64,000 bases of DNA from Desulfurispirillum indicum S5. GTDB taxonomy: Bacteria > Chrysiogenota > Chrysiogenetes > Chrysiogenales > Chrysiogenaceae. The DNA lies in the NCBI RefSeq assembly GCF_000177635.2, contig NC_014836.1:1996001-2060000 (forward strand), written 5' to 3'. The position numbers were made by a program, and so were the translations under genes. Positions 23,831-26,135 of the stretch are shown here, one piece after another (position 1 is the first letter of the stretch; each line of letters starts with the position of its first letter). Under the pieces are notes generated by a model that worked only from the letters and a program-made list of their open reading frames with translations, was not told the origin of the DNA and searched no databases.

Positions 23831-24841
23831 TTACCCTCGCAGCGAAGCCTGCAGACGATCCAGGCGAACCATCAGCTCGGCGAACTGGGGCGGATTCAAA
23901 CTCTGGGGACCGTCACACAGCGCCATATCGGGATTGGGGTGAACCTCGATCATCAGGCCGTCAGCTCCAGCCGCCATGGCCGCCAGGGAGAGACTGGGAA
24001 CCAGGGAAGCGAATCCCGTGGCGTGACTGGGGTCAATGATAATGGGCAAGTGGGTGCGCTGGTGCAGCACGGGAATAGCGCTGATATCCAGGGTGTTACG
24101 GGTGGCTGTCTCAAAGGTGCGGATACCCCGCTCGCACAGAATAACATCGCGATTACCCTCGCTGAGAATGTACTCAGCGCTCATGAGAAATTCCTCAATG
24201 GTGGTGCTCATGCCGCGCTTCAGCAGTACCGGCTTGCGGGTTTCGCCCACCAGCTTGAGTAGCGAGAAGTTCTGAATATTGCGGGCACCGATCTGCAGTA
24301 CATCGGCGTAGCGCTCCACCAGATCAAGATCACGGGGATTCATGACCTCGGTCACGATGGGCAGCCCCACCTCATCGCCAGCAGCGCGCAACCACTTCAG
24401 GCCATCTTCACCCATGCCCTGGAAAGAGTAGGGGCTGGTGCGCGGCTTGAAGGCACCGCCACGCAACGCCTTCGCACCGGCCTGCTTGACAGCGACGGCA
24501 GCTTCCAGAACCTGCTCAGGAGTCTCCACGCTGCACGGTCCCGCGATAACCGAGGTGTAACCTCCACCAAAGCGGGCCGGGCCAACTTCCACAATGGTCG
24601 GAGTGGGTTTGGTTTCCAGACTGGCCAGTTTGTAGGGTTTCTGAATGGGGACCACCGAGTCCACACACGCGATTTTGTGCAGATCCAGCAGGCTTTCGCG
24701 ATTTCCACCGACGCCCACCGCGCCGATAATGGTCCGCTCTTCTCCCACGATCACATGGGGACGAAAGCCGAAAGCCACCACCCGTTCACAGACATGTTCG
24801 CGATCTTCCTCTGTTGCCGTTGCCTTGAGTACGATAACCAT
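23831..24841 (-). CDS. aroF: 3-deoxy-7-phosphoheptulonate synthase (DAHP synthase, AroF/AroG type with N-terminal regulatory domain)
   Basis: A 336-residue enzyme that condenses PEP and erythrose-4-phosphate, the first step toward chorismate. The N-terminal about 70 residues (MVIVLKATATEEDREHV) form the ferredoxin-like regulatory domain seen in the Thermotoga type, in which tyrosine or phenylalanine inhibits. The barrel follows with VIAGPCSVE, GGAFKPRTSPYSFQG, LLKRGMS and IIDPSHATG. ATG 24841 has AAGGAGA upstream. It sits apart from the aroCKBQ operon and behind an attenuator-like leader (24880-24980). Confidence 0.95.
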   Translation of the reverse strand: MVIVLKATATEEDREHVCERVVAFGFRPHVIVGEERTIIGAVGVGGNRESLLDLHKIACVDSVVPIQKPYKLASLETKPTPTIVEVGPARFGGGYTSVIAGPCSVETPEQVLEAAVAVKQAGAKALRGGAFKPRTSPYSFQGMGEDGLKWLRAAGDEVGLPIVTEVMNPRDLDLVERYADVLQIGARNIQNFSLLKLVGETRKPVLLKRGMSTTIEEFLMSAEYILSEGNRDVILCERGIRTFETATRNTLDISAIPVLHQRTHLPIIIDPSHATGFASLVPSLSLAAMAAGADGLMIEVHPNPDMALCDGPQSLNPPQFAELMVRLDRLQASLRG

Positions 24842-24879: not shown

Positions 24880-24980
24880 AAAAAAAAGCCGCCGGAAAAG
24901 GGGGTCTCCCTTCTCCTGCGGCCTTTGGCTTCTGAATATAGACAAAAGACCGCAAACAGAACCATGTCCTGCTTGCGGTC
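24880..24980 (-). promoter_or_regulatory. Attenuator-type leader of aroF (competing hairpins and terminator)
   Basis: On the transcribed (minus) strand three elements can be drawn. An early 12-bp hairpin with one G-U pair spans 24980-24948. A terminator hairpin with arms from 24922 to 24888 has a GCCGC/GCGGC base plus a GGAGAAGGG upper stem and runs into eight U residues (24887-24880). A 7-base segment of the first hairpin (24954-24948) can instead pair with 24923-24917, which is the 5' arm of the terminator. The folds are mutually exclusive, which is how attenuators work. No convincing leader peptide or known aptamer was recognised. Confidence 0.68.
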
Positions 24981-25082
24981 CGTTGTGTCGGTTACCCAAA
25001 CAGGCAGCTACCTAAAAAAGTAATACTGCCAAAAATATACTGTCTGAAGCGTTTGCACGGTATTGACATCCTTATGATGCGG

Positions 25083-25110
25083 TTGTTTTCAGCTGGAATT
25101 TATGCATAAT
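25083..25110 (+). promoter_or_regulatory. Likely hemB operon promoter
   Basis: TTGTTT (25083-25088), 16 bases, CATAAT (25105-25110), 47 bases before the hemB start. An isolated TTGACA at 25063 has no well-placed -10 partner. Confidence 0.4.
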
Positions 25111-25157
25111 ATGGACCTCTGTTACCCGTGTCAATAAAAAAATCTGGAGCATACCGC

Positions 25158-26135
25158 ATGCAGGAACTCATCCGCCGCCCCCGAAGACTTCGCACCTCGC
25201 CAACGCTGCGCCGCATGGTGCAGGAAACCACCCTGACCCCCAGCGACTTTGTCATGCCGCTGTTCATCTGCCATGGTGAAAAGATCAGTCAGCCCGTGGG
25301 CTCCATGCCCGGCGTGAACCGCGTCAGCATTGACGTGGCCGTGGCCGAATGTCGCGAGCTGCAGCAGCTGGGCATTCCAGCCGTGATCCTCTTCGGCATA
25401 CCCGCAGCCAAGGACCCCCTCGGCAAGGAAGGCTATGACGACAACGGCATCATTCAGCAGGCCGTGCGCGCCATCAAGCAGGCGGTGCCCGAGCTGCTGG
25501 TCATCACCGATGTCTGCCTGTGCGAATACACGGATCACGGCCACTGCGGCGTTATCGTCGACGGCGACGTCCATAACGACACCACCGTTGAGCTGCTGGT
25601 GAAGGAAGCGATCTCACACGCCCGCGCGGGTGCCGATATCGTGGCCCCTTCTGACATGATGGATGGCCGCATCGGCTCCATCCGCGAAGGCCTTGACGAA
25701 GCGGGTTTCAGCCAGATCCCCGTCATGAGCTACTCCGTGAAATACTGCTCGGCATTCTATGGGCCCTTCCGCGACGCGGCCGACTCCACCCCCCAGTTCG
25801 GCGACCGCAAAACCTATCAGATGGATCCCGCCAACAGCCGCGAAGCCATCGTGGAGGCCTCCCTCGACGTGGAAGAGGGCGCGGACTTCCTGATGGTGAA
25901 ACCCGCCCTGCCCTACCTGGACATCATCGCCTCCCTCAAGGAGAACTTCTCCCTGCCCCTGGCGGCCTATCACGTCAGCGGTGAATACGCCATGATCAAG
26001 GCAGCAGGCCGCAACGGCTGGCTGGACGAAGCCAAGGCCATGGAGGAGTCGCTGCTCTCCATCAAGCGCGCCGGCGCCGACATCATCATATCCTACTACG
26101 CCAAAGAGTTCGCTCAGCGCTATCAGGGGAAATAA
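25158..26135 (+). CDS. hemB: Delta-aminolevulinic acid dehydratase (porphobilinogen synthase)
   Basis: A 325-residue enzyme joining two 5-aminolevulinate molecules in heme synthesis. Both Schiff-base lysines are visible, in [14 protein letters not shown] and [12 protein letters not shown]. The [12 protein letters not shown] segment replaces the cysteine-rich zinc site of the zinc-only enzymes, suggesting a different metal dependence. SDMMDGRIG is conserved. ATG 25158 was chosen because CTGGAG lies 8 bases upstream; a GTG-type start 30 bases earlier has no such site. Six bases separate it from the pyrophosphatase gene. Confidence 0.95.

Follow-up and report, generated by a model that had tools for sequence, protein, structure and literature searches.

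A predicted leader-peptide attenuator reading Trp, Tyr and Phe codons before the DAHP synthase gene of Desulfurispirillum indicum

The aroF locus, its promoter and its leader peptide

The aroF gene of Desulfurispirillum indicum S5 (Chrysiogenota) and the leader region that precedes it lie on the minus strand of the 64-kb stretch of DNA that was analysed (the window; Table 1). The product of aroF, 3-deoxy-7-phosphoheptulonate (DAHP) synthase, is the enzyme with which the synthesis of aromatic amino acids begins. AroF matches NF006421 with 488.5 bits (cut-off 335) and is also matched by PF00793 and PF18152; its N-terminal ferredoxin-like domain is the regulatory domain. The upstream neighbour, hemB (25155-26135, plus strand), is divergent, and there is therefore no transcript from upstream for hairpins between the two genes to end. 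The sole good promoter, predicted from sequence, lies upstream of the whole aroF leader element, with transcription expected to start near 25098. An earlier sequence-only reading of this DNA, which had proposed an RNA switch before aroF, had staked that proposal on transcription starting no further downstream than 24922, and the promoter is placed accordingly.

Table 1. Coordinates of aroF and of the features of its leader in the window
Feature	Position	Strand	Basis
aroF, DAHP synthase, N-terminal ferredoxin-like domain; regulated gene	23834..24841	minus	NF006421, PF00793, PF18152
Predicted sigma-70-type promoter TTGACA-17-TATTAT	25106..25134	minus	11/12 consensus positions; same place and 17-nt spacing in both Chrysiogenota relatives
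Putative Shine-Dalgarno AAGGA of leader peptide	25069..25073	minus	sequence; 10 nt before GTG
Leader peptide ORF GTG...TAG, 16 codons, (M)QTLQTVYFWQYYFFR*	25008..25058	minus	7 aromatic codons in 9; conserved in L083 and L084
Segment a, UUGGCAG, Trp-Gln codons; partner b	25026..25032	minus	a:b 5-7 bp in three species
Segment b, CUGCCUGUUUGGG, immediately 3' of leader stop codon; partner a or c	24995..25007	minus	pairing comparison, shuffles, ribosome masks
Segment c, 5' arm of first hairpin; partner b (antitermination) or d (termination)	24966..24981	minus	pairing comparison, shuffles
Segment d, 3' arm of first hairpin and short U tract; partner c or e	24943..24962	minus	pairing comparison; c:d terminator-like
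Segment e, 5' arm of main terminator; partner d or f	24908..24926	minus	pairing comparison, shuffles
Segment f, 3' arm of main terminator and eight U	24880..24904	minus	sequence, pairing comparison

The leader ORF (codons 25058-25008: GTG CAA ACG CTT CAG ACA GTA TAT TTT TGG CAG TAT TAC TTT TTT AGG TAG) carries a control run, YFWQYYFF, in which Trp, Tyr and Phe codons occur together. The window contains 2,342 start-to-stop readings of 8-40 codons, and apart from this ORF none of them has at least six aromatic residues in nine; the ORF's density of seven in nine was reached by none of 3000 shuffles of the aroF upstream region. With its ribosome site and this dense aromatic run the ORF looks to be translated; the GTG start codon counts against reading it as the leader of an attenuator. 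The sequence-only reading had described a switch with no recognised ligand or leader peptide, a description that is overturned by this conserved ORF, located outside the segment then considered. The frame that had been noticed instead, from an ATG at 24965 (MVLFAVFCLY...), does exist, in a hairpin loop, but as a leader peptide it was rejected: the two relatives have no matching ATG, and the GTG of the true leader starts 93 nt upstream of it.

The comparison within Chrysiogenota rests on the three genomes in the set (D. indicum, L083 and L084), which there make up the whole class. The leader peptide is VQLVTTTYFWQFYFFS in L083 (run TYFWQFYFFS), whose AroF is 89% identical to that of D. indicum, and MSTKITTKQPHSLAFFWQYYFR in L084 (run AFFWQYYFR), with 75% identity. 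Leader ORF, promoter and promoter spacing are thus kept in all three species despite an AroF identity of only 75-89%.

Leader RNA pairings and a proposed ribosome-dependent relay

The 204-nt leader has a folding energy of -85.3 kcal/mol, compared with -53 +/- 4.8 for dinucleotide shuffles (z = -6.8). Its main terminator (stem 24926-24888, eight U at 24887-24880) lies 38 nt upstream of the aroF ATG at 24841, and the upstream hairpin, c:d, occupies 24981-24947 with 16 bp, G-U pairs counted. Both structures had been seen from the letters, with a distance of 39 nt and a stem of 12 bp, as had the pairing of the upstream hairpin's 3' arm with the terminator's 5' arm (d:e), then put at 7 bp and here found to span 9 bp without interruption (GCGGUCUUU/AAAGGCCGC), or 16 bp if one bulge is allowed. 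The central proposal of an attenuator with mutually exclusive folds also stands: the alternative pairings are kept in both Chrysiogenota relatives, and helices a:b, b:c, c:d, d:e and e:f can all be formed in each of the three species.

The helices were compared on hand-cut segments because the MAFFT alignment of the three leaders misaligned the e/f region. When partners were swapped among the species, c:d and e:f paired best with their own-species partner in every case, and d:e was retained though its arms have diverged. Against shuffles, b:c gave p = 0.0085, 0.08 and 0.0045 (better in two of the three species), values that are not independent, two of the three species sharing nearly the same b and c; the leaders being related, combined p-values overstate the case. 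For D. indicum alone, d:e is modestly above chance when the arm is shuffled (p = 0.018) and not significant in a whole-linker search (p = 0.26). Judged from the sequences compared, conservation of d:e in three species is a stronger argument for the pairing than these single-sequence statistics.

Conservation downstream of the leader ORF, as far as the terminator, is confined to hairpin arms and short linkers, and this bears on what the RNA would sense. The strong folding of the leader could also be that of an aptamer riboswitch, a T-box or a protein-binding attenuator responding directly to an aromatic amino acid or to chorismate, as the first reading of the sequence had supposed; we hold such a sensor to be highly improbable, given that the leader ORF explains the conserved part, that no thresholded Rfam match was found in the window and that scans of six relatives gave none to the leader. 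No riboswitch, T-box or leader family reached its gathering threshold for the aroF leader in the window, in keeping with the earlier failure to recognise a T-box or other aptamer there, and at their own thresholds no Rfam models reported aroF leaders in the sequences scanned. Membership of Phe_leader (RF01859) was considered and rejected, the best match being a weak one of 22.4 bits against a cut-off of 55. The predicted signal is accordingly the charging of aromatic tRNAs as read by a ribosome, rather than a ligand bound by an aptamer.

Both hairpins resemble intrinsic terminators, and in principle they might regulate nothing and be simply two terminators in tandem that, for example, shield aroF from read-through. 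There is very little to recommend this explanation: with hemB divergent there is no upstream transcript to end, the promoter precedes the hairpins, a terminator acting constitutively downstream of that promoter would shut aroF off, and the aromatic leader would be left unexplained.

The promoter, the ORF and its aromatic codons, the five pairings in three species and the recurrence before homologous genes (described in the next section), all established by sequence and comparison, argue instead for a ribosome-mediated transcription attenuator that reads the charging of Trp-, Tyr- and Phe-tRNA, with a probability of about 0.92. In such an attenuator the ORF would be translated, ribosomes would stall in it, transcription would end prematurely, and each of the three amino acids would elicit a response. 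Every defining feature of ribosome-mediated attenuators that sequence can test is present: an ORF dense in product codons with a ribosome site, an intrinsic terminator between the ORF and aroF, a (predicted) upstream promoter and, as computed, a mutually exclusive antiterminator that depends on ribosome position.

The proposed sequence of events is a six-segment relay with an off state of a:b, c:d and e:f and an on state of b:c and d:e. RNA polymerase would start near 25098 and a ribosome would begin the 16-codon leader. Were charged Trp-, Tyr- or Phe-tRNA scarce, the ribosome would stall in YFWQYYFF and cover segment a; b:c would then form and leave d free for e, so that neither c:d nor e:f would form and aroF would be transcribed. 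With all three charged tRNAs plentiful, the ribosome would reach the UAG and cover b; c:d and then e:f would form, and transcription would end before aroF.

The dependence on ribosome position was modelled by placing a ribosome computationally on the codons, with the transcript ending after c. With the ribosome at the Trp or Tyr codons, this masked, staged model gives about 13 expected b:c pairs, and 9 in L084 (9-14 overall); at the next Phe the numbers are about 13 in two species and 5.9 in L084, and at the stop codon 4.8, 4.6 and 0.2 in the three species. A stalled ribosome would therefore promote b:c followed by d:e, giving read-through; one that finishes the peptide would promote c:d followed by e:f, giving termination. 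Equilibrium folding with ribosome masks does not discriminate: the termination fold wins at every position tested. Antitermination must therefore be kinetic, the choice falling while the RNA is still being made, which is also the accepted view of known attenuators. When no ribosome is placed, b:c persists in the model for two of the three species, which counts against the attenuator reading and implies that untranslated leaders may not be super-terminated as they are in the classical model.

The first hairpin complicates the picture, since c:d was scored as terminator-like in all three Chrysiogenota species and may itself act as a first terminator, making tandem, coupled terminators a live variant of the attenuator. 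In its fullest form, which we offer tentatively and at somewhat less than even odds, the single peptide would be a three-input sensor (of Trp or Tyr or Phe shortage) that acts through the d:e relay on both tandem terminators together, an arrangement specific to Chrysiogenota in which a terminator has been added to an aroF attenuator of older, one-terminator design that Deferribacterota and deltaproteobacteria have in common. A simpler attenuator, which seems to us rather unlikely, would have c:d as the ancestral, ribosome-controlled terminator (with b:c its antiterminator) and e:f as an added back-up, the d:e pairing arising only from the similarity of the arms. The terminator-like character of c:d in three of three species suits this simpler scheme, as do the weakness of d:e in the whole-linker test and the distance from the leader stop to c:d, which approximates that to the terminator in Deferribacterota and deltaproteobacteria. 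Against it, c:d is followed in D. indicum by no more than a short U tract (UUUUG), all three species retain d:e although its arms have diverged and, with d:e removed from the scheme, transcription would still end at e:f when the ribosome stalls.

Recurrence before aroF homologues in other bacteria

Regions upstream of AroF homologues were collected from 80 named contigs and 147 whole genomes, giving 182 distinct upstreams. An ORF with at least six aromatic residues in nine precedes 43 of the 182, compared with 0.9% of shuffles; the sample was picked by similarity to D. indicum AroF, and 43/182 is not a natural frequency. All 43 leader-bearing upstreams contain an intrinsic terminator, and at 30 of these loci the 5' arm of the terminator has an alternative partner at p <= 0.05, mostly in the last leader codons. 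Leader-peptide attenuation of DAHP synthase would thus recur in several phyla.

The deltaproteobacterial leaders end ...YYGYYFWFTRGEPPVG*, and their PPVG codons form the antiterminator arm. This arm and that of the terminator covary: pairing holds in 98.1% of cells, there are 4 double changes, and an equally high value came from 1 of 500 shuffles. The conserved peptide letters PPVG in these leaders reflect RNA pairing. The conserved PPVG* end occurs in the aroF leaders of L029, L030, L037, L038, L040, L050, L057, L058, L065 and L069. On one deltaproteobacterial contig a Cobalamin riboswitch (82.1 bits) lies near aroF (L057:2470-2645, minus strand).

Deferribacterota, which the genome set treats as a single phylum together with Chrysiogenota, have two aroF copies. 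A Phe/Tyr leader (for example MLGRLFYGFFFGFFFYCFFSNRSVAV*) precedes all 23 of the copies nearest to D. indicum aroF; an aromatic leader was found before none of the 22 second copies. The Deferribacterota copies are L087-L121 against L116, L117, L126, L128, L129, L147, L151, L154 and others. The control runs of the Deferribacterota leaders are without Trp, so that the codon mix is Phe and Tyr in this group and Trp, Tyr and Phe in Chrysiogenota and deltaproteobacteria. Since the mix differs between groups, one could test whether each leader is matched to the feedback that its enzyme copy has to obey.

Shorter aromatic runs (such as YGYFGFITVRPRA) stand upstream of aroF in the Nitrospinota L049, L052 and L017, possibly as further leaders. 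Outside the window, an HMGL-like (LeuA-type) gene of D. indicum is preceded by a Leu-rich leader ORF, MKDVTPHHPSVSLLLLLGIYREA*, with a hairpin and U tract after the ORF (L199:1283-1354); this is probably a second leader-peptide attenuator in the organism. A simple scan found no convincing leader before D. indicum trpE or pheA.

Relation to known attenuators

In the papers searched, no regulation of the aromatic pathway in Chrysiogenota was found, and the attenuator proposed here gives a concrete prediction of how that phylum controls the entry step of the pathway. The open-access papers searched, whose silence is weak evidence, describe no such aroF leader in Chrysiogenota, Deferribacterota or deltaproteobacteria, and none that combines Trp, Tyr and Phe codons.

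The attenuator of the his operon in Salmonella and E. coli has a six-segment, a-f scheme of alternating pairings. The aroF leader resembles it in these pairings, in a leader rich in codons for the pathway's product and in an extra middle hairpin; it differs in encoding three aromatic residues rather than His, in gene and phylum, and in the U tract that its middle hairpin carries. The extra hairpin between the first structure and the terminator of the his attenuator is thought to lower basal read-through (PMC1183508). With the pheA (pheL) attenuator (RF01859) the aroF leader shares a Phe-rich leader peptide, the aromatic pathway and the logic of alternative hairpins; it differs in mixing Trp, Tyr and Phe codons and in regulating DAHP synthase.

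The kind of aroF leader described here is already known, from Corynebacterium and Acholeplasma. In the aroR-aroF attenuator of Corynebacterium glutamicum, ribosomes stall at the aromatic codons of a Phe-Tyr-Phe leader (PMC4046766); the same leader figures in a passage of a review that cites Neshat et al. 2014 (PMC11802643). The analogy, a functional one drawn from these papers, lies in the function of the regulated gene and in stalling at aromatic codons; the actinobacterial leader has its Phe-Tyr-Phe, that of D. indicum a run of seven aromatics including Trp. The uORFC-13-1 motif, found upstream of aroF only in Acholeplasma and environmental DNA and only suggested to function as an attenuator (PMC8632094), likewise places a uORF with one or more Phe codons and a terminator before DAHP synthase. 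Against this background, what is possibly new in the aroF leader of D. indicum and its relatives is the tandem-terminator relay, the control run combining Trp, Tyr and Phe, and the breadth across phyla.
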